DNA of 64,000 nucleotides from Halobacillus amylolyticus. GTDB lineage: Bacteria > Bacillota > Bacilli > Bacillales > Halobacillaceae. Under the pieces are notes generated by a model that was given only the letters and a program-made list of their open reading frames with translations, was not told the DNA's origin and searched no databases. Both the position numbers and the translations under genes were made by a program. The first letter of the stretch is position 1. Each line of letters opens with the position of its first letter. The stretch spans positions 4,090,098 to 4,154,097 of the forward strand of contig NZ_CP095075.1 in the NCBI RefSeq assembly GCF_022921115.1, written 5' to 3'. Below are positions 9,737 to 58,280 of this stretch, piece by piece.

Positions 9737-10939
9737 ATGGAATTTGATCACATTTTAATTCGCTATGGTGAATTGTTTATAAAAGGGAAAAACAGAAAGT
9801 ATTTTGAACGTAAACTACAAAGTAATTTAATCAAAAAGTTGAAGGAATTCAACAATGTTCGTGTTTCTAAAAAAAGGGACCGGATGTATGTGCTCCTAAA
9901 CGGTGAAGATCCTTATCAAGTAATGAATAAGTGTCAGCTAGTCTTTGGAATCCATACCTTAAGTTTTGCAATAAAAGTGGAGAAAGATGCAGATGTAATA
10001 AAGCAGGCAGCATTGGCTGCGTTACAAGATTCTCCTGAAGCACGAACATTTAAAGTGTCAGCTAAGCGAGCCGACAAGGAGTTCCCAATCCGCTCGCAAG
10101 ACTTGAATCAACTGATCGGCGGGTATGTACTCTCAAATACGGAAGGGATCACTGTTAACGTTCATCACCCGGATGTTGAGTTAAAGGTAGAGGTCCGAAA
10201 TGATGCTGCTTATATAACTGCACAGGATTACCCGGGTGCCGGCGGACTTCCGGTCGGGACAACTGGTAATTCACTGCTCCTTCTTTCAGGGGGGATCGAT
10301 AGCCCGGTTTCAGGATATTTGACATTGAAGCGGGGCGTGGAGCTTGAAGCCATTCATTTTCATTCTCCCCCCTATACGAGTGAACGTGCCAAGCAAAAGG
10401 TGCTGGACCTTGCGAGCGAACTTTCTAAGTACGGGAACAAAATAAAGGTCCATATTATTCCTTTTACCGCTATCCAGGAGAAAATTCACCGTGAGACACC
10501 TGAAGGGTACAGTATGACGATTATGCGCAGGATGATGATGAGAATTAGTGCGCAAATAGCTAAGCAACAAGAAATTTTATCTTTGACGACCGGGGAGAGC
10601 CTTGGTCAAGTGGCAAGTCAAACGATGGAAAGTATGAATGCCATTAATGAAGTAACGAACTTACCTATTATTCGCCCGTTAGCAGCTATGGATAAGCTTG
10701 AAATTATAGGTGTTTCAAGAAAGATTAACACGTATGATCTTTCTGTGCTTCCGTATGAAGACTGTTGCACGATTTTTGTACCGAAAGCTCCGAAAACTAA
10801 GCCAACAAGGGAAAAAGCGAGCTATTATGAGTCTACTGTCGAGTTCAGTCAGGATATTGCTGACGCCATTGAGCAATCCTATATCGTGGAAGTAAATGGT
10901 AATGAAGAAAGTAAAGACGAGTTTGAGGATTTGCTTTAA
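9737..10939 (+). CDS. thiI: tRNA 4-thiouridine synthase ThiI
   Basis: ATP-dependent sulfurtransferase that thiolates uridine 8 of tRNA and may serve thiamine biosynthesis. Domain order is an N-terminal ferredoxin-like segment, THUMP (about 60-165), then an adenylating PP-loop domain with SGGIDSP at 184-190. The protein ends at 400 residues and lacks the C-terminal rhodanese domain of the E. coli enzyme, as in other Bacilli, so the persulfide must come directly from the adjacent desulfurase. GGGGAGGT precedes the ATG. A terminator follows. Confidence 0.96.
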   Translation: MEFDHILIRYGELFIKGKNRKYFERKLQSNLIKKLKEFNNVRVSKKRDRMYVLLNGEDPYQVMNKCQLVFGIHTLSFAIKVEKDADVIKQAALAALQDSPEARTFKVSAKRADKEFPIRSQDLNQLIGGYVLSNTEGITVNVHHPDVELKVEVRNDAAYITAQDYPGAGGLPVGTTGNSLLLLSGGIDSPVSGYLTLKRGVELEAIHFHSPPYTSERAKQKVLDLASELSKYGNKIKVHIIPFTAIQEKIHRETPEGYSMTIMRRMMMRISAQIAKQQEILSLTTGESLGQVASQTMESMNAINEVTNLPIIRPLAAMDKLEIIGVSRKINTYDLSVLPYEDCCTIFVPKAPKTKPTREKASYYESTVEFSQDIADAIEQSYIVEVNGNEESKDEFEDLL

Positions 10940-10943
10940 GTGG

Positions 10944-10976
10944 AAGGCTCACGTTGCATCGCATCGTGAGCTTTTT
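10944..10976 (+). terminator. Terminator of the iscS-thiI operon
   Basis: GCTCACG (10947-10953) pairs with CGTGAGC (10965-10971), followed by TTTTT. Confidence 0.8.
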
Positions 10977-11130
10977 ACGAGGGATTGCGCTTCGTGTGTC
11001 AAATATGCAAATTTCAGCTTCAATGGTTCAAAAACGGTGTATTTTCGAGTCTATACTTGCAACACAATTTTTTACTTTTTCGGCCAAATTATGTATTGTA
11101 AAAATAGAATCAATAGGAAGGGGCAGGTAA

Positions 11131-12720
11131 ATGAAGTTATGGTATGGCGGTAAAATATATACGATGAAAACGGAGGGGGAATGGGTTGAGGCAGTTATTT
11201 CTGATGGTGGAACAATTGTAGCTACAGGACAGACTCAAGACCTTTATACTTCCTACCAAGAGTCTATCACGGAGGAAATCAATTTAAAAGGGGCCGTGAT
11301 GTACCCTGGTTTTACGGATAGTCACCTTCATATCATCGGCCACGGGGAAAGGCTTATGCGGCTTGATTTATCTTTTATGAAGTCAGCTGAAGAGGTGAAG
11401 CAAGCCTTAAGCCTTCATGCTGAACAGCTAGATAAAGGTGACTGGATCATTGGTGAAGGTTGGAATGAAAATCAGTGGGAAGATAAACGCATCATACATA
11501 AAGATGAGTTAGATGAGCTGACAAGCAACCATCCGATCGTGCTCACAAGAGTATGTCGCCATGCTTTGCTAGCCAATTCAAAAGCAATGGAGCTTGCTGG
11601 AGTGAATAGGCAGACGCCTGATCCTCAAGGTGGTGTGATCGTACGTGACGGCCAACTCGAACCAATGGGTTACTTTCATGATCAAGCACAGGATTTAATT
11701 AAGCAGGCAATGCCTGAGGTTACTCTAGAATACTTAAGAAAAGCGACAGGGCTTGCTGTTAGTGATATGCATGCTCATGGTCTGGTTGGAGGTCATAGCG
11801 AAGATCTTAATTATTACGGTGGCTTTAAAAAGACTTATGATGCCTTTACTGAGGTGATTAATGGGGATGACGTTAAGTTTCGGGCTCACCTGCTCGTGCA
11901 TAATGGAGTACTGGAGGATATGGATGAAGAGGGTTTAGGGTTTAAGAAAGGTACGGAATTTGTGGAGCTTGGCGCTGTGAAAATTTTCACTGATGGAGCA
12001 CTTGGCGGCAGAACAGCGTGGTTGGCTGATGATTATGCTGACGATGAGGGAAATCGAGGTGTGGCCATCTATACAGAGGACCAACTGAAAGAAATTGTCC
12101 TTAAGGCGCGCAAACGGAACATGCCTATCGCTGTGCATGCTATTGGAGATGCTGCAACGGAAGCGATTGCCAATGTTATTATGGAATATCCTCTCCAAAC
12201 AGGTGAAAGAGATCGGATTATTCATGCCCAAATTTTAAGCCCAGGACTGATAGATAAATTAAAGAGGCTGAATGTTATTCTTGATATCCAGCCTACTTTT
12301 GTTGCTTCAGATTTTCCTTGGGTGATGGATCGTCTTGGTCATGTTCGCTTAAAAACCTCCTATTCGTGGAAGACGCTGTTGGATGCTGGTATTGTCTGTG
12401 CCGGGGGATCTGATGCTCCAATTGAGGAAATAAACCCACTGCTTGGAATACGAGCTGCGGTAGATCGTCGTGCAAGCTACGACAATCAAGTGTACCAGAC
12501 TGAAGAACGTCTCTCCGTATATGAAGCCATTTCCTTATATACAAAGGGAAGTGCTTATGCCATTGGGAGAGAGGATTTACAAGGAATGATTGAAACAAAT
12601 TTCGTTGCTGATTTTACCATTTTGGATCGAGATTTATTCGCCCTTAAACCACATGAATTGGCAGATGCTATGGTAACGATGACGGTAGTAGATGGTGAGA
12701 TCATGTACCAACGAGTATAA
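11131..12720 (+). CDS. Amidohydrolase family protein (Amidohydro_3, YtcJ-like)
   Basis: Metal-dependent amidohydrolase of 529 residues in the YtcJ/NfdA-like group, which includes N-substituted formamide deformylases; its true substrate is unknown. Visible features are the N-terminal beta-sandwich, the first metal motif HLH (residues 65-67 in TDSHLHIIGHG), a conserved VHAIGDAA segment carrying a metal-binding His, and the late GGSDAPI segment with the catalytic Asp. There is no signal peptide. Ribosome site GGAAGGGG precedes the ATG. The gene appears monocistronic, between terminators. I give no gene symbol because the family is broad. Confidence 0.87.
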   Translation: MKLWYGGKIYTMKTEGEWVEAVISDGGTIVATGQTQDLYTSYQESITEEINLKGAVMYPGFTDSHLHIIGHGERLMRLDLSFMKSAEEVKQALSLHAEQLDKGDWIIGEGWNENQWEDKRIIHKDELDELTSNHPIVLTRVCRHALLANSKAMELAGVNRQTPDPQGGVIVRDGQLEPMGYFHDQAQDLIKQAMPEVTLEYLRKATGLAVSDMHAHGLVGGHSEDLNYYGGFKKTYDAFTEVINGDDVKFRAHLLVHNGVLEDMDEEGLGFKKGTEFVELGAVKIFTDGALGGRTAWLADDYADDEGNRGVAIYTEDQLKEIVLKARKRNMPIAVHAIGDAATEAIANVIMEYPLQTGERDRIIHAQILSPGLIDKLKRLNVILDIQPTFVASDFPWVMDRLGHVRLKTSYSWKTLLDAGIVCAGGSDAPIEEINPLLGIRAAVDRRASYDNQVYQTEERLSVYEAISLYTKGSAYAIGREDLQGMIETNFVADFTILDRDLFALKPHELADAMVTMTVVDGEIMYQRV

Positions 12721-22206: not shown

Positions 22207-22233
22207 TGAAACCAACTATGGGATACTCACGTA
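22207..22233 (+). promoter_or_regulatory. ECF sigma (SigW-type) promoter of the pspA cluster
   Basis: TGAAAC (22207-22212), a 17-nt spacer and CGTA (22230-22233) match the SigW-class consensus in both elements. It lies 40 nt before the DUF4178 start. PspA of B. subtilis belongs to the SigW regulon, which makes the match biologically sensible. Confidence 0.8.
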
Positions 22234-22272
22234 CATACAGGTACAAGGTCATAGTTGAAGAGAGGTGAGCAT

Positions 22273-22782
22273 TTGGGATTTTTTTCGAAATTGTTTTCAA
22301 GTAAAAAGACAGAAACACCTGATGTAAAAGAACGGACAGCGCTTAACATCCAGATAGGAGATATCATCACTTACGATCTTGTGGACTATGAAGTGGTTGG
22401 GAAAATCACCTACCGTGATGGTTCTTATGAATGGTTTTCCTATCAGCTTCTTGAAGGCGCAAATATAAAATGGTTGTCTGCTGAAATGGATGACGAGCTT
22501 GAACTTGGTATATATGAGACAATAAAGTTGCCGGTGGATTCTTTTCAAAAGCAAATTGAATATGAAAATACCATCTATCATAAGGATGAGGAAGGTGAAG
22601 CATATGTGACGGGGGAAGGCCGGAGCAAGAATATTAATGGCCGCACTACACGTTATGCTGAATATATTTCTGAAGATGAAGAGACATACCTATCATTAGA
22701 ATCCTGGGGTAGTGAGATCGAGGTAAGTTACGGATATGATATTGAAGCCTATGAACTTAAAATTATTGCTGGTTCTAAATAA
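22273..22782 (+). CDS. DUF4178 domain protein, first gene of the pspA cluster
   Basis: A 169-residue soluble protein of the DUF4178 family; molecular function unknown. The N-terminus is basic (GFFSKLFSSKKTE) and the body is an acidic beta-rich domain (IQIGDIITYDLVDYEVVGKI ... WLSAEMDDELELGIYETIKL). I chose the TTG at 22273 because AGAGGTGA precedes it closely; the upstream ATG at 22255 would place this ribosome site inside the gene. It is separated from pspA by 16 nt and follows the ECF-type promoter, so it should be the promoter-proximal member of a stress operon. Confidence 0.82.
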   Translation: MGFFSKLFSSKKTETPDVKERTALNIQIGDIITYDLVDYEVVGKITYRDGSYEWFSYQLLEGANIKWLSAEMDDELELGIYETIKLPVDSFQKQIEYENTIYHKDEEGEAYVTGEGRSKNINGRTTRYAEYISEDEETYLSLESWGSEIEVSYGYDIEAYELKIIAGSK

Positions 22783-22798
22783 TAAGGAGGAAAATTAA

Positions 22799-23470
22799 AT
22801 GTTTAAACTTTTTAGCCGTGTAAAAACTGTTGTCGGTGCTGAGCTCAATTCTATGTTAGATAAGGCAGAAGATCCGGTGAAAATGCTAGATCAATTCATG
22901 AGAGATATGGAAAGCGACATTCGTGACGCAGAGAGTGCTGTTGCTAAACAAATTGCTAATGAGAAAATGTTAAAACGCAAATATGATGATGCACAGGCGT
23001 TAAGTGATAAGCGTATGAAGCAAGCTGAGAAAGCAATGGAGGCTGGCAATGAAGATTTAGCACGTCGTGCGTTAGAGGACAAAAATAATCAGCAATCACA
23101 GGCTGACCAATTCAAGGCTTCTCATGAGCGCGCGGAACAAGATGCAAATAACCTTCGTAAGAAGCTTGATGAAATGAAAAAAGAATATCAGGAAATGAAG
23201 CTGAAAAAAGACTCTCTTAAAGCTAGAGCGGAATCTGCGAAAACCCGTACGAAGATGAACCGTACGATGTCTGGCATCGGAAGTGACGAGTCTCGCCAAG
23301 GGTTTGAAAGAATGGAAGAGAAAGTAATGCAGCACGAGGCGGAAGCAGAGACAAGTGAGGATCTGTCTAAGTCTAATCGTTCTTTAGATGACGAATTTGA
23401 TACGCTAGACGAAAAAGATAGCGTGGATGATGAATTAGCTGCACTGAAAAAGAAAATGAATAAAGAATAA
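22799..23470 (+). CDS. pspA: Phage shock protein A (PspA/IM30 family)
   Basis: Peripheral membrane, ESCRT-III-like protein that binds stressed membranes and limits proton leakage. The 223-residue product begins with the amphipathic helix typical of the family (FKLFSRVKTVVGAELN), contains the DPVKMLDQFMRDM signature and continues as long charged coiled coil. The last 40 residues are very acidic and Ser-rich. AAGGAGGA precedes the ATG. There is no PspBC or LiaFSR partner beside it; instead it sits with DUF4178, DUF4247 and DUF350, an arrangement recurrent in Firmicutes. Confidence 0.95.
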   Translation: MFKLFSRVKTVVGAELNSMLDKAEDPVKMLDQFMRDMESDIRDAESAVAKQIANEKMLKRKYDDAQALSDKRMKQAEKAMEAGNEDLARRALEDKNNQQSQADQFKASHERAEQDANNLRKKLDEMKKEYQEMKLKKDSLKARAESAKTRTKMNRTMSGIGSDESRQGFERMEEKVMQHEAEAETSEDLSKSNRSLDDEFDTLDEKDSVDDELAALKKKMNKE

Positions 23471-23487
23471 TGAGATGGTATGCTTAT

Positions 23488-23514
23488 TCGTGCCTGACTC
23501 CATGTCAGGCACGA
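23488..23514. repeat. Perfect 11-bp hairpin between pspA and the DUF4247 gene
   Basis: TCGTGCCTGAC (23488-23498) and GTCAGGCACGA (23504-23514) pair around TCCAT. No T run follows and the next ribosome site is 15 nt on. The GTGCCTGAC/GTCAGGCAC core resembles a palindrome seen repeatedly between Bacillaceae genes. It may protect the pspA mRNA 3' end or lower downstream expression. Confidence 0.7.
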
Positions 23515-23543
23515 GTATTCTTGATGGAAGGAGGGGTTACACC

Positions 23544-24215
23544 TTGAGAAACTATGTTGGAGTAATAATTGTTGTTATTATCGCAGTTGTAATAGGTTTT
23601 AACATGTTTGGCAATAATGGTGGTTCCAGAGGGATGACTGGTACATACACCGAGGATACATATGGAGAATTGCCTAGTGAACCCTCTCGCGGTGAAATTA
23701 TTGATAACATTAATAACTCTGATGCTTCATCCATTGAAGAATTAATTGAGCAGAGCTTTCCCTTGCTTGATACGGTTAGAACAGACCAAGGCATTTCTAA
23801 AATTTATATGACACAAGAACTTACGCTGCCAAAAGTCGCTGAACTATTAGAAACGAATCGTACACCAGAGGAAGTTAGTCAGCGTAACGAAGGGAAGCAA
23901 GTCCTCGTCTATCCCGATCACTTTGTTATACTGCAGGAAAGCGATGTGGAGCCAGGACTCGTTTTAATTGAATTATCCAGCGACGAATTTGTGAGAAATA
24001 ATTACTCACCGAGCTTCTTTCAAGGGTTATTGGCTTACTCATTGTTAAACAGAATGCTCGATTCAAACGATTGGTCGAGGAGGCGGGCATCCACCTGCCA
24101 GTCAACAGGGAATTGTTATGGAGGTTACGGTATGTATGGTGGATACAATTCAGGTTCATCTGGTTCATTCCGCGGATCATCTAATCGCGGGGGAGGACCT
24201 GGCGCAGGAAAATAG
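23544..24215 (+). CDS. DUF4247 membrane-anchored protein
   Basis: About 223 residues. One N-terminal transmembrane helix (about residues 4-22, YVGVIIVVIIAVVIGFNMFG) is followed by an extracytoplasmic-looking domain of the DUF4247 type and an extreme C-terminal Gly/Ser/Tyr-rich tail (GGYGMYGGYNSGSSGS) that is probably disordered. Two cysteines (TCQSTGNCYGG) precede the tail. The start TTG at 23544 follows GGAAGGAGGGG; the longer frame would begin inside the upstream hairpin. It is 13 nt upstream of the DUF350 gene, so they are cotranscribed. Function is unknown. Confidence 0.8.
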   Translation: MRNYVGVIIVVIIAVVIGFNMFGNNGGSRGMTGTYTEDTYGELPSEPSRGEIIDNINNSDASSIEELIEQSFPLLDTVRTDQGISKIYMTQELTLPKVAELLETNRTPEEVSQRNEGKQVLVYPDHFVILQESDVEPGLVLIELSSDEFVRNNYSPSFFQGLLAYSLLNRMLDSNDWSRRRASTCQSTGNCYGGYGMYGGYNSGSSGSFRGSSNRGGGPGAGK

Positions 24216-24228
24216 AGGAGGGAATTAA

Positions 24229-24624
24229 ATGGAGCCATTTATAGCTACTATTGGTTATTTTGCATTAGGTGTAGTTGTTGTTGTAATCGGTCTAGTTTTA
24301 TTTGAATGGATCACGAAACAGTATAAGGACTGGGATGAAATCAGCAGCGGGAATCAAGCTGTTGCAATGTCGATTTCAGGAAAGATCATCGGGATTTGTA
24401 TTGTATTGTCGTTTGCCATTTATCACAGCTTCACACTATGGGATACCTTAATATGGGGAGCCTTTGGTGTAATATTACAAATGGTTGCTTACCTGTTATT
24501 TGAGTTATTCACAAGGAAATTCTCTGTGGAAACAAAGCTGAAGGAAAACAATACAGCCGTTGGAATTGTTTCCATGGGTGTGTCTATTGGTTTAGCTTTT
24601 GTCATTGGAGCTTCCATTACATAA
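24229..24624 (+). CDS. DUF350 integral membrane protein (YjfL-like)
   Basis: A 131-residue protein with four predicted transmembrane helices arranged as two repeats. Each repeat carries the family's Asn-Ala-Val motif (SGNQAVAMSISG about 40-51 and ENNTAVGIVSMG about 105-116). DUF350 proteins such as E. coli YjfL are linked to PspA-like and polyamine-modifying genes; biochemical role unknown. AGGAGGG precedes the ATG. A strong terminator just after it ends the DUF4178-PspA-DUF4247-DUF350 unit. Confidence 0.88.
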   Translation: MEPFIATIGYFALGVVVVVIGLVLFEWITKQYKDWDEISSGNQAVAMSISGKIIGICIVLSFAIYHSFTLWDTLIWGAFGVILQMVAYLLFELFTRKFSVETKLKENNTAVGIVSMGVSIGLAFVIGASIT

Positions 24625-24659
24625 GCAAACTATGTGTACCTTCATTGAAAAGAATGCTT

Positions 24660-24697
24660 GAGCCACTATGGGTTTCTTCTACATAGTGGCTTTTTTA
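24660..24697 (+). terminator. Terminator of the pspA operon
   Basis: AGCCACTATG (24661-24670) and CATAGTGGCT (24682-24691) form a perfect stem followed by TTTTTT. Confidence 0.92.
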
Positions 24698-24738
24698 GAG
24701 CTAAGGAAACTATAAAAAATGATTGTGGATAAGGTTAC

Positions 24739-24898
24739 ATGAAGTTAGCCGCATCCAGCTCCAGCGCGCAAGACACGCAAGACTAGTCAATCGCCTCCGT
24801 GGCCCCACAGGACGTGGGTCAGTCTCGATCTTGGCACAAGGGCGTGCCGATTTTAGCTGAACTTCATCTGTAGTGTCTACCGGGGCGCTTGCGCTTTT
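24739..24898 (+). repeat. Interspersed intergenic repeat, copy A
   Basis: A roughly 160-nt GC-rich block with AAGACTAGTCAATCGCCTC, CTCCGTGGCCCCACAGGACG, a GGCACAAGGGCGTGCC hairpin and the end segment GGGCGCTTGCGCTTTT. It shares these modules with copies near 27270 and 37371. TGAAGTT...AACTTCA brackets most of it. No coding potential is evident. Confidence 0.65.
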
Positions 24899-24949
24899 GT
24901 TCGAGGAAAGCTGTTAACAGTTAGGATGTACGATGTAGGGGTGAAGGCA

Positions 24950-26500
24950 ATGAATGAACAAGCCATAAAGAAAAGTCGACTGATTTATTGGGCGTCTGGG
25001 ATTGTCTCGATTTGTGGCATTATTTTCGAGGTGCTCTTTGGGGCATTAGGCTCGTACATACTTGGTGATGGTGTGAAACAGTATACGCTGACAATTAGTT
25101 TGTTTTTAACAGGTATGGGAATCGGCGCAAGTATTAGTGAAAAAGTAATGAAAAAGTTGATCTTAACATTTGTGTGGATCGAATTTATGGTCGCCCTAAT
25201 TGGTGGCTTCTCAAGTTTCATAATGTTTGGCATGACGGCTTTTGCTCCAGGGGGATCAGATGCCCTATTCTTATATTTGATAACTTTCACAGTTGGCGCC
25301 CTTACAGGTGTTGAACTACCGATCTTGATTAGAAAAGCAAATGAAATTGGTGTGGAGTTAAGCAGGAGCACGGCGAGGGTACTGTTTTCAGATTATGCGG
25401 GCGGCTTAATTGGCGGCTTACTGTTCGCCTTTTACTTGCGTCCGCAAATGGGTATGGTCAAAAGCGCTTTTTTCGTTGCCTGTATTAATTTAGCTGTAGC
25501 CGTTGTGGTACTCTACTTGTTTCGTTCAGAAATTAAGAATATGGCCTTACATGGGACGGCGGCAGGTGTGATTGGCGTGCTGTTAGTTGGCGGGCTTTTC
25601 TTCGGCGAAGAGATGGCGTTTGCTTTTGAACAAAAGCTTTATAAGGATCCAATTATCTACATGGAGGAAAGTGCTTATCAACGGATTGTTTTAACGAAAG
25701 AGCAAGGCGATACCCGACTTTACCTGAATGGTTCGCTCCAATTTAGCTCTTCTGATGAACATCGCTATCATGAAACACTCGTTCATCCTCCTATGGCACA
25801 AGCAGAAAGTCATGAAGATGTTCTCGTTCTTGGCGGTGGAGATGGTTTGGCAGCTAAAGAATTATTAGGTTATTCCGATGTCGAAGAAATTACGCTCGTT
25901 GACCTCGATCCTGCTGTTACACATTTGGCGAACACGAATTATCATTTACTTCAGTTAAATGAAGGTTCACTTATGGATGAAAGGGTAACCGTTTATAATA
26001 AGGATGCCTTTCAGTTTCTTGAAAACGCGGAACAGTTTTATGATGTCATTATTATTGATTTGCCAGACCCGAATAATGAGAGCTTAAATAAATTATATAC
26101 GAAAGAATTTTATTCCCTCGTGAGAAACCATCTAGCACCAGGCGGGGCAGCCATGGTTCAAGCGACAAGTCCTGTTTTTGCAACGGAAGTGTATTGGACA
26201 ATCAGTGAGACTATAGCGTCAACAGGCCTTTCAATTGAAAATTTTCATGTGGATATTCCAAGCTTCGGAAACTGGGGATTTGTTATGGCAAGCCGTGAAC
26301 TTATCGATGTAGGCAGTTTAGATATAAAGAAGAAAACCGAATTTCTTACGGACGAGTTACTGAAATCTATGACCGTGTTTGGAAAAGATGAAGATAGGGA
26401 AATAGTAAATAGGGACGGTGAGACCGTCACGTTAGAACCAAATACATTAATTGATCCTAATTTAATTCAGAAGTATGAGCAAGCCTGGCAAAACTATTGA
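24950..26500 (+). CDS. Membrane-bound polyamine aminopropyltransferase (7-TM plus SpeE domain)
   Basis: About 516 residues in two parts: an N-terminal block of about seven transmembrane helices (residues 10-215) and a C-terminal spermidine-synthase-type Rossmann domain. In the latter the [23 protein letters not shown] and DLPDPNN motifs are in order, so cofactor and catalytic positions look intact. It should transfer an aminopropyl group from decarboxylated SAM to an amine; the membrane part may bind or move the substrate. The ATG at 24950 has a GGGGTGA site. It is separated from the DUF350 gene by a terminator and a repeat, yet belongs to the same conserved neighbourhood. Confidence 0.87.
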
Positions 26501-26538
26501 TGAATGGTACGGGTCAAAATATGAAGAGGAGTGTAAGT

Positions 26539-27219
26539 GTGAAAGTATCTTATCATGGACATTCTGTTGTAAAAGTAGAAGCGAATGGAAAGACGATTTT
26601 GTTCGATCCTCACATTTCTGAAAATGGCAATACTGATCTGAATGCTGATGATGTGAAAGCAGATGTCATCCTGCTCACACATGGTCATAATGATCACGTA
26701 GGGGATACATTCGAAATTGCCAAACGTAACGACGCACAAATAGTAGCACCGTTTGAATTGGCTGCCTACTTAGGGAGTAAAGATCTTAATGCCCATCCAA
26801 TGTATATTGGCGGCAGTCATACCTTCGATTTTGGTGAAGTGAAATTCACCCAAGCCTTTCATGGTTCTTCCTATACAGAAGAAGACGGCTCGATTGTTTA
26901 CACGGGAATGCCTACAGGAATCTTATTAACCATTGATGGAAAAACCATTTACCATGCTGGGGATACTGGGTTATTCACTGACTTAAAAATGATCGGAGAA
27001 CGAAATGACATCGACTTAGCCTTCCTTCCAATTGGAGATAATTTTACGATGGGGCCTGAAGATGCCCTGACAGCTGCTGAGTGGCTAAAGGCGAAACAGG
27101 TCGTCCCGATTCACTACAACACATTCGACTTGATTAATCAGGATGGTGAAGATTTCGCGTCTAAAGTCAAGCCGGGTAAAGGAAAAGCTTTAAAGCCGGG
27201 AGAATCAATCGAACTCTAA
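26539..27219 (+). CDS. ytkL: UPF0173 metal-dependent hydrolase (YtkL-like)
   Basis: Metallo-beta-lactamase-fold hydrolase of 226 residues. The metal-binding signature THGHNDH is at 47-53, with later metal-ligand segments HAGDT and PIHYNTF. Physiological substrate unknown. The start is the GTG at 26539, which follows AAGAGGAG by 7 nt and aligns with the family N-terminus ([14 protein letters not shown]); the longer frame begins within the end of the upstream gene. It is 38 nt downstream of the aminopropyltransferase, so the two probably form an operon, closed by a terminator. Confidence 0.92.
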
Positions 27220-27269: not shown

Positions 27270-27567
27270 TTTGGCGCCCAGACACTCGAGACATAAGCGT
27301 ATCTCCTCCGTGGTCCTACAGGACGTAAGGATGTTCGACGTTGGCACAGGACGTGCCGAATTTAGTCGAATATCCTTGAACTACTTTTCACGGAGCCAGA
27401 CCGTTTACGCTAGTCGTGTCTACCAGGACACCTCCGCTTTTCTACTGTCTAGCTCCGAGGGGCAGACCTTCGCGGCATAAGCAGTCTGGCTCTGTGAAGA
27501 AAGTTCACTTCACTACGCCATTCTGCTTATGCGTTTCAGGTCTAATCGCCCCTCTCCGCTTTTCTTA
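27270..27567 (+). repeat. Interspersed intergenic repeat, copy B (composite)
   Basis: Almost 300 nt of GC-rich non-coding DNA. It repeats modules of copy A (CTCCGTGGTCCTACAGGACGT; GGCACAGGACGTGCCGA) and appends a second inverted block in which GAGCCAGAC near 27393 can pair with GTCTGGCTC near 27486. The short open frames across it are shadows. It fills the gap between ytkL and the ytoI promoter. Confidence 0.6.
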
Positions 27568-57902: not shown

Positions 57903-58280
57903 ATGGATACAATGGGAAGACATGTAATTGCTGAATTATGGGATTGTAATGAAGATAAATTAAATGATATGACATATATCGAAAAAACATTTGTGGATGC
58001 TGCACTTAAAGCGGGTGCTGAAGTAAGAGAAGTTGCTTTTCATAAATTTGCTCCACACGGGGTCAGCGGGGTTGTCATTATTTCTGAATCACATTTAACG
58101 ATTCACAGCTTTCCGGAACATGGCTATGCGAGCATAGATGTTTATACTTGTGGAGATCGAATCGATCCAAATGTAGCGGCAGAATTTATAGTTAAAGCCC
58201 TAGAAGCTGGTCGCAATGAAACGGTTGAAGTACCAAGGGGAATGGGCCCTGTAGAAGTACAGCAATCACGAGCCCTATAG
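57903..58280 (+). CDS. speD: S-adenosylmethionine decarboxylase proenzyme
   Basis: Makes decarboxylated SAM, the aminopropyl donor for spermidine. The 125-residue class 1B proenzyme self-cleaves between Glu62 and Ser63 ([10 protein letters not shown]), producing the pyruvoyl cofactor from Ser63; His68 and Cys83 are also in place. AAAGGGGG precedes the ATG. Its product is the expected co-substrate of the membrane aminopropyltransferase at 24950-26500. Terminator follows. Confidence 0.97.

Follow-up and report, generated by a model that had tools for sequence, protein, structure and literature searches.

Why should a gene for PspA share a locus with one for a membrane-bound aminopropyltransferase (APT), and would the two proteins have anything to do with each other? 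The question is raised by a 64,000-nucleotide stretch of the 4.3 Mb genome of Halobacillus amylolyticus (hereafter the window, meaning the whole stretch that was analysed; 4,090,098-4,154,097 of contig 1). Here, genes for DUF4178, PspA, DUF4247 and DUF350 proteins follow one another behind a promoter of the type read by SigW, an extracytoplasmic function (ECF) sigma factor, and are succeeded by a gene that fuses a seven-transmembrane (7TM) domain to an APT domain. Our answer, for which the odds seem to us slightly better than even, is that the whole may be a SigW-type envelope-stress operon with two arms, one of PspA and DUF4178 and one, for aminopropyl transfer, of DUF4247, DUF350 and the APT. 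The gene set, the conservation of the promoter, the motifs of the APT and its co-inheritance with the S-adenosylmethionine (AdoMet) decarboxylase SpeD are seen directly in the sequences. Papers are cited by PMC number, for those excerpts of them that were available to us. The elements in question are listed below, with lengths in amino acids (aa).

22207..22233, plus strand: SigW-type ECF promoter TGAAAC-N17-CGTA (TGAAAC at 22207-22212, 17 bases, CGTA at 22230-22233)
22273..22782, plus strand: DUF4178 protein, 169 aa (PF13785, 1.4e-33); start TTG 22273 fits the length of relatives
22799..23470, plus strand: PspA/IM30 family protein, 223 aa (PF04012, PspA_IM30, 7.4e-51)
23485..23517, plus strand: inverted repeat with a 14-bp stem in the pspA/DUF4247 gap, single copy in the window
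23544..24215, plus strand: DUF4247 protein with an N-terminal hydrophobic anchor, 223 aa (PF14042, 2.9e-12); start TTG 23544
24229..24624, plus strand: DUF350 (YjfL-family) membrane protein, 131 aa (PF03994, 8e-39)
~24660..24697, plus strand: terminator-like hairpin in the DUF350/APT gap, with a T run (-17.0 kcal/mol for 24656-24700)
24950..26500, plus strand: 7TM domain fused to an APT domain, 516 aa (Spermine_synth, 4.3e-36; PRK03612)
57903..58280, plus strand: speD, AdoMet decarboxylase proenzyme, sole AdoMet_dc match in the genome

Gene set and promoter

The original prediction, made from the letters of the window, had described a TGAAAC-N17-CGTA promoter ahead of DUF4178, then DUF4178, PspA, DUF4247 and DUF350 in order, a terminator, a 7TM-spermidine synthase and a UPF0173 gene. 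Every one of these was recovered, the promoter at 22207-22233, the terminator as a terminator-like hairpin and the proteins by Pfam and NCBIfam (UPF0173, beyond the APT, by Lactamase_B_2 at 2.4e-26 and by PRK00685 at 309 bits against a cut-off of 144), with small corrections to start codons. TTG 22273 and TTG 23544 were chosen because relatives run to about 169 aa (DUF4178) and 223 aa (DUF4247), and the latter start has ggaggggtt just upstream; for the APT the most probable start is ATG 24950, giving 516 aa as in its relatives.

Gene presence at other loci was scored with hidden Markov models (HMMs) built from the copies in the family (Halobacillaceae), the five genes counted being DUF4178, PspA, DUF4247, DUF350 and APT. 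All 44 family genomes have DUF4178, and the loci of the other 43 hold PspA in 43, DUF4247 in 41, DUF350 in 41 and APT in 39; all five are present in 39, with identical order and strand in 39/39. The four exceptions are one locus where the contig ends after DUF350 (G020, scored as lacking the APT) and three with gene loss (G009, G012, G021), and APT genes lying in two frames (G029) or two pieces (G118) were scored as present. In the order (Bacillales), DUF4178 was found in 89 of 299 genomes, 88 of them above cut-off, and at the 77 loci, from 76 genomes, that belong to the order but not to the family (G288, with DUF4178 below cut-off, is excluded) the counts are PspA 76, DUF4247 77, DUF350 73, APT 73 and all five 72, order and strand being kept in 69/72. 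In the phylum (Bacillota) DUF4178 occurs in 15/299 genomes, and 7 of 13 loci have the APT and 4 all five genes. The cluster is conserved order-wide and, partly, in other classes. The neighbourhood that the original prediction expected in other genomes is indeed kept (39/43 family loci, 72/77 order loci), and the APT does belong with PspA, DUF4178, DUF4247 and DUF350. The sixth proposed family, UPF0173, does not: 35/72 order five-gene clusters are without it (in two of the 35 the contig ends within 0.5 kb of the APT), and it is present in 37/77 order loci, so its position would reflect old synteny at most; where it occurs, it mostly precedes a CBS/DRTGG gene.

Other arrangements were seen as well. 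In G027 the whole cluster is duplicated in tandem, with one APT truncated (L040, 6130-13378). One family of the class has a PspA-DUF350-DUF4178 form without APT (L165-L167, L169), and of its four genomes two lack AdoMet_dc, a third has a weak match and the fourth has it. In one family of the order, three genomes carry PspA-DUF4178-DUF4247 without DUF350 or APT (L154-L157).

The promoter corresponds to TGAAAC-N16/17-CGTA, which we take to be the SigW consensus. In the 64 kb window the N17 form has a sole exact match (shuffled sequences gave a mean of 0.12, and at least one match in 11/100) and the N16 form has none. Judged from the window alone this is a modest match, and it is conservation that lifts it far above chance, since the strict motif is found exactly upstream of DUF4178 in 45/45 family copies, the window included (30 N17, 15 N16), and in none of 200 sets of base-shuffled family upstream stretches. 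It lies 44-56 bases before the position aligned to window base 22255, with about 18 bases further to the likely start. Across the 43 family loci the motif occurs 46 times in 1.17 Mb (both strands summed), and 44 of these are the sites upstream of DUF4178. It precedes DUF4178 in 46/77 order loci outside the family, and the order and phylum loci together gave 65 matches in 2.30 Mb (both strands summed), with one before DUF4178 in 46 loci. The genome encodes SigW itself (320.9 bits; cut-off 243.1). The ECF control that had been proposed thus gains support from sequence. A separate SigW-type promoter for the APT was considered and rejected, as 0/110 DUF350-APT gaps carry one.

The aminopropyltransferase, SpeD and DUF2617

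The window APT is a member of PRK03612 by the NCBIfam cut-off (599.4 bits against 472), and its best-scoring solved relatives are 3anx, a spermidine synthase, and 1uir, a polyamine aminopropyltransferase. Alignment with solved relatives shows that it has both GGGDG and D-x-x-D-P, presumably the donor and acceptor motifs of aminopropyltransferases, and of the 119 Bacillota loci with an APT, 117 have GGGDG and all 119 have D[LF]PDP. By pattern, none of five haloarchaeal homologues examined has a GGGDG-like motif, which makes it less safe to infer function from haloarchaea.

In the window APT, the catalytic domain comes after seven hydrophobic segments. In an alignment of 118 APTs (fragments in G029 and G118 excluded; segment limits set by hand from the hydropathy profile), lysine plus arginine residues average 2.3 at the N-terminus, 2.1, 4.1 and 3.4 in loops 2, 4 and 6, and 0.9, 0.0 and 1.9 in loops 1, 3 and 5, and the excess falls on the N-terminal side in 118/118. 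A simple segment caller found seven segments in 12/17 APTs, six in three and eight in two, and with the number varying from 6 to 8 it may have missed a segment or called a false one.

If the APT uses decarboxylated AdoMet, then its genomes require an AdoMet decarboxylase. The window encodes one about 31 kb from the cluster, with residues 1-114 of its 125 aligning without gaps to the solved decarboxylase 1tlu, and this SpeD, acting in trans, is likely to supply the donor. Of the 299 genomes of the order, 282 have SpeD (AdoMet_dc) and 278 a Spermine_synth domain. SpeD was found in 12/12 genomes whose sole Spermine_synth match is a membrane APT, compared with 6/21 that have no such match (Fisher p 5e-5, relatedness ignored). 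The twelve are G035, G036, G057, G116, G162, G198, G212, G213, G223, G279 and G283, which have DUF4178, and G300, which does not, and frame lengths of 516-548 aa back the membrane form. The six AdoMet_dc genomes of the 21 include two weak matches (G196, G312) and two incomplete genomes (G196, 80%; G246, 62%), and the 21st genome, G324, was assigned from its absence in the match list. Two genomes outside this sample, G037 and G038, likewise have a membrane APT only, and SpeD. DUF4178 shows the same association, occurring in 0/17 order genomes without SpeD and in 88/282 with it (p 0.004).

In some genomes speD has a place in the cluster. It lies between APT and DUF4178 in G116, G198 and G223, and in G300 the order is DUF4247-DUF350-speD-APT (identified by Pfam in G116, G198 and G300, and in G223 by a SpeD HMM whose seed includes the G223 sequence). 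On Novosphingobium and Alteromonas plasmids speD is clustered with APT, DUF350 and DUF4178, an Ensifer plasmid has speD and a DUF350-like frame upstream of the APT, and a Burkholderia plasmid has a SpeD match at a distance of about 3 kb from the APT. Working fusions of AdoMet decarboxylase and APT are known in Pelagibacter (PMC11107197).

Of the seven phylum genomes with APT loci, five have SpeD, and in the two without it, G369 (Candidatus Frackibacter) and G602, a DUF2617 gene sits between PspA and DUF4247. Only three of 398 phylum genomes contain DUF2617, these two and G668, which is also without SpeD and has the order DUF4178-PspA-DUF2617-DUF4247-APT. Among 14 control genomes, DUF2617 is found in Corynebacterium glutamicum and Haloferax volcanii and AdoMet_dc in eight others, never both, and Lactococcus lactis alone has neither among the 11 controls in which Spermine_synth was matched; Actinobacteria are represented for DUF2617 through these tallies and through papers. 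DUF2617 adjoins a spermidine-synthase homologue on 12/12 haloarchaeal plasmids that carry it, and AdoMet_dc was found in none of ten of the twelve such plasmids searched (plasmid records only, not whole genomes). These 12 records came from a tblastn search of plasmids with a haloarchaeal query; a clostridial-type query gave no match there, and a scan of genome contigs with three DUF2617 sequences gave a single locus, identical to the query. As a side observation, DUF2617 occupies the speD slot beside membrane APTs at L162, L164, L193, L179, L180 and L185-L192.

Taken together, the profile comparison and the invariant residues described below make it probable, in our judgement, that the DUF2617 proteins are pyruvoyl AdoMet decarboxylases built of two halves and so far unrecognised as such. 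Fused AdoMet decarboxylases have the pyruvoyl Ser, assisted by a Cys, in one half and the processing His in the other, together with a ribose-binding Glu where the strand of that His ends (PMC1282579). Across 12 DUF2617 sequences the N-terminal half keeps I-G-x-S-H and E...C and the C-terminal half F...A-x-T-x-I and H-x-Y-P; S49, H50, C65, H135, Y137 and P138 are invariant in 12/12, and a Glu follows P138 in 10/12. SpeD holds all such residues in a single copy (E62-S63-H64...H68...P71-E72...C83). The assisting Cys of fused enzymes lies in the Ser half, and the division of DUF2617 into Ser/Cys and His halves matches the fused layout, although the residues are only putatively equivalent. With hhalign (13 DUF2617 and 6 SpeD sequences as input), the C-terminal half of DUF2617 scores 32.9 against the SpeD core (pairwise E 1.2e-4), compared with 22.4 for the best of 120 column shuffles (0/120 reach 32.9) and 18.0 for the best of ten unrelated-profile comparisons; haloarchaeal DUF2617 alone scores 32.1 and the clostridial type alone 25.3, and the N-terminal halves, at 14.3, are at noise level. 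Against homology, hmmsearch of solved chains with the DUF2617 profile (E up to 10) found no AdoMet decarboxylase and hmmscan of 12 members found no AdoMet_dc. Ravi et al. predict DUF2617 to be an enzyme of beta-sandwich fold in which two histidines are conserved (PMC11237479), and no naming of it as a decarboxylase was found in the open-licence literature searched, as far as the excerpts go.

Readings of the locus

The operon that we favour would work as follows. Under envelope stress, SigW would read it from the ECF promoter, and PspA with DUF4178 would act on the inner face of the damaged membrane. The second arm would consist of DUF4247 (exported and anchored), DUF350 (in the membrane) and the 7TM APT. 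SpeD would make decarboxylated AdoMet, the aminopropyl donor, and the APT would move aminopropyl groups onto an amine acceptor at or in the membrane, where they would add positive charge. The two arms would cooperate, and it is in this sense that we infer, with the original prediction, that polyamine chemistry works with PspA.

Several observations weigh against this operon. The strict promoter was not found in 31/77 order loci, nor in any of the 13 phylum loci (other orders and classes). A terminator-like hairpin with a T run lies in the DUF350-APT gap in 26/38 family loci (13/72 order loci). The APT alone is gone in G021, and from G009 and G012 DUF4247, DUF350 and APT are missing together; all three genomes retain DUF4178-PspA. 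The genome also encodes a cytosolic SpeE. Two genomes without SpeD, G128 and G207, do have weak Spermine_synth matches (2.9e-14 and 4.1e-8); they were excluded from the twelve, and if counted as membrane APTs they would change the tally to 12/14 (p 0.0016). Finally, the positive-inside counts together with seven segments would put the catalytic domain outside, which clashes with a cytosolic donor. An outward-facing APT might instead modify the envelope, aminopropylating an amine of the membrane or cell surface rather than free putrescine, with a donor from SpeD or, where SpeD is missing, DUF2617; we put this forward tentatively and think it rather unlikely.

Among the alternatives, the one that survives best is that the membrane APT works at the cytosolic face, converting putrescine or agmatine into free spermidine or a relative of it, and that this soluble polyamine then shields the membrane. 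It is possible but doubtful. The canonical motifs are kept and the best solved relatives are 3anx and 1uir, and genomes that have lost cytosolic SpeE could depend on the membrane enzyme as their only spermidine synthase; however, Halobacillus already has a cytosolic SpeE, and the topology counts oppose a cytosolic catalytic domain. Polyamine reports from elsewhere also fit it poorly, as Mycolicibacterium smegmatis (cited for this report alone) has no detectable polyamines in the excerpted account (PMC8503589) and H. volcanii holds agmatine and cadaverine, with both its SpeE homologues predicted to be membrane proteins (PMC6267482).

A less likely possibility, to which we give little weight, is that two independent modules share the locus without cooperating, PspA-DUF4178 for stress and DUF4247-DUF350-APT for metabolism. 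The joint losses in G009 and G012 and the hairpin before the APT in 26/38 family loci would suit it, as would G300, where DUF4247-DUF350-speD-APT stands without DUF4178, and G116 and G223, where PspA is divergent and DUF4178 is set apart. Yet order and strand are identical in 69/72 order five-gene loci, DUF4178 and DUF350 adjoin membrane APTs on the Novosphingobium and Alteromonas plasmids too, and the DUF350-APT gap is 30 bases or less in 27/72 order loci (compared with 0/38 family loci). That the spermidine-synthase domain is instead a non-catalytic part of a sensor or transporter, binding polyamine or decarboxylated AdoMet, is improbable, for although Ravi et al. call the fused 7TM domain transporter-like (PMC11237479), the catalytic domain is predicted outside and the five haloarchaeal homologues are without a GGGDG-like motif, both motifs persist almost throughout the Bacillota loci (117/119 and 119/119) and SpeD is retained.

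Neighbouring features and known systems

The inverted repeat at 23485-23517 might serve in mRNA processing or attenuation, and the hairpin at 24660-24697 was not listed by a simple scanner. Two noncoding stretches, 24740-24900 in the gap before the APT and 27270-27480 after UPF0173, look similar by eye and might belong to a dispersed repeat; a piece of 20 bases is single copy in the window, and a repeat finder did not list the stretches. The closest named relatives are H. shinanisalinarum for DUF4247 (96% identity) and H. naozhouensis for DUF4178 (90%). A potassium-channel gene (Ion_trans_2/TrkA_N by Pfam) lies 3' of the APT at L158 (G446, 10427-11476), the one clostridial-type locus scanned, and another with TrkA_N lies within the G116 cluster (L149, 7498-8526); by eye, L160 and L162 have open reading frames (ORFs) resembling a potassium channel.

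A PspA-polyamine link that was published on purely contextual grounds is now connected with a defined stress promoter and a supply of decarboxylated AdoMet, and can therefore be tested in halophiles that are harmless and can be cultured. Should DUF2617 prove to be an AdoMet decarboxylase, the donor step that is missing for the membrane aminopropyltransferases of haloarchaea and, if C. glutamicum is typical, for those of Actinobacteria would be accounted for. Since spermidine-type polyamines are reportedly absent, in the excerpts, from M. smegmatis and H. volcanii (PMC8503589, PMC6267482), the same reading of DUF2617 would raise the question of what other molecules are aminopropylated in bacteria and archaea.

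The original prediction called this system incompletely described. That holds, but the PspA/DUF4178/DUF350/7TM-spermidine synthase operon was published in 2024 by Ravi et al., who propose for it a role in monitoring polyamines or in aminopropylating other substrates, so that the envelope-stress/polyamine reading was already in print (PMC11237479). Beyond that paper, DUF4178 was not found in open-licence papers, and a search of them for membrane aminopropyltransferases gave no match. PspA, DUF4178, DUF350 and the 7TM-spermidine synthase are common to the window and to the second group of PSP-polyamine operons of Ravi et al. (e.g., AAN56744, AAN56746, AAN56747). That group has a CesT/Tir (DUF2170) partner, whereas none was found among the six Pfam-scanned ORFs of the window (the remaining ORFs of at least 60 aa between ald and UPF0173 are all on the minus strand), and it has the Ctha_1186 lipoprotein where the window has DUF4247. 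The window cluster has a conserved ECF promoter, which the excerpted text does not mention for the second group (PMC11237479).

Other known systems differ further. In Bacillus subtilis, pspA-ydjGHI are secondary SigW genes, so that PspA is likewise under SigW (PMC3498285), but its partners are not those of the window, and the B. subtilis control genome gave no DUF4178 match. The only other PspA match in the H. amylolyticus genome belongs to a lia-type locus (L174, 4233-7346), where a LiaF-like protein, a histidine kinase and a response regulator flank it, unlike the pspA of the window. The bac cluster of Pseudomonas aeruginosa (PspA and DUF2170) was set aside, as its authors, in the excerpted text, report no spermidine synthase homologue in or around it (PMC10948618). 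For PRK03612, of which the window APT is a member by score, activity on free polyamines would be a prediction only. The DUF4247-DUF2617 variant of Ravi et al. (e.g., CCP45394, CCP45395) resembles the window in joining DUF4247 to polyamine genes, but the window has PspA, is without DUF2617 and has its speD elsewhere in the genome. Relative to the open-licence literature, the new elements are a Bacillota form that includes DUF4247, the conservation of the ECF promoter, the dependence on SpeD and the exchange of SpeD for DUF2617.

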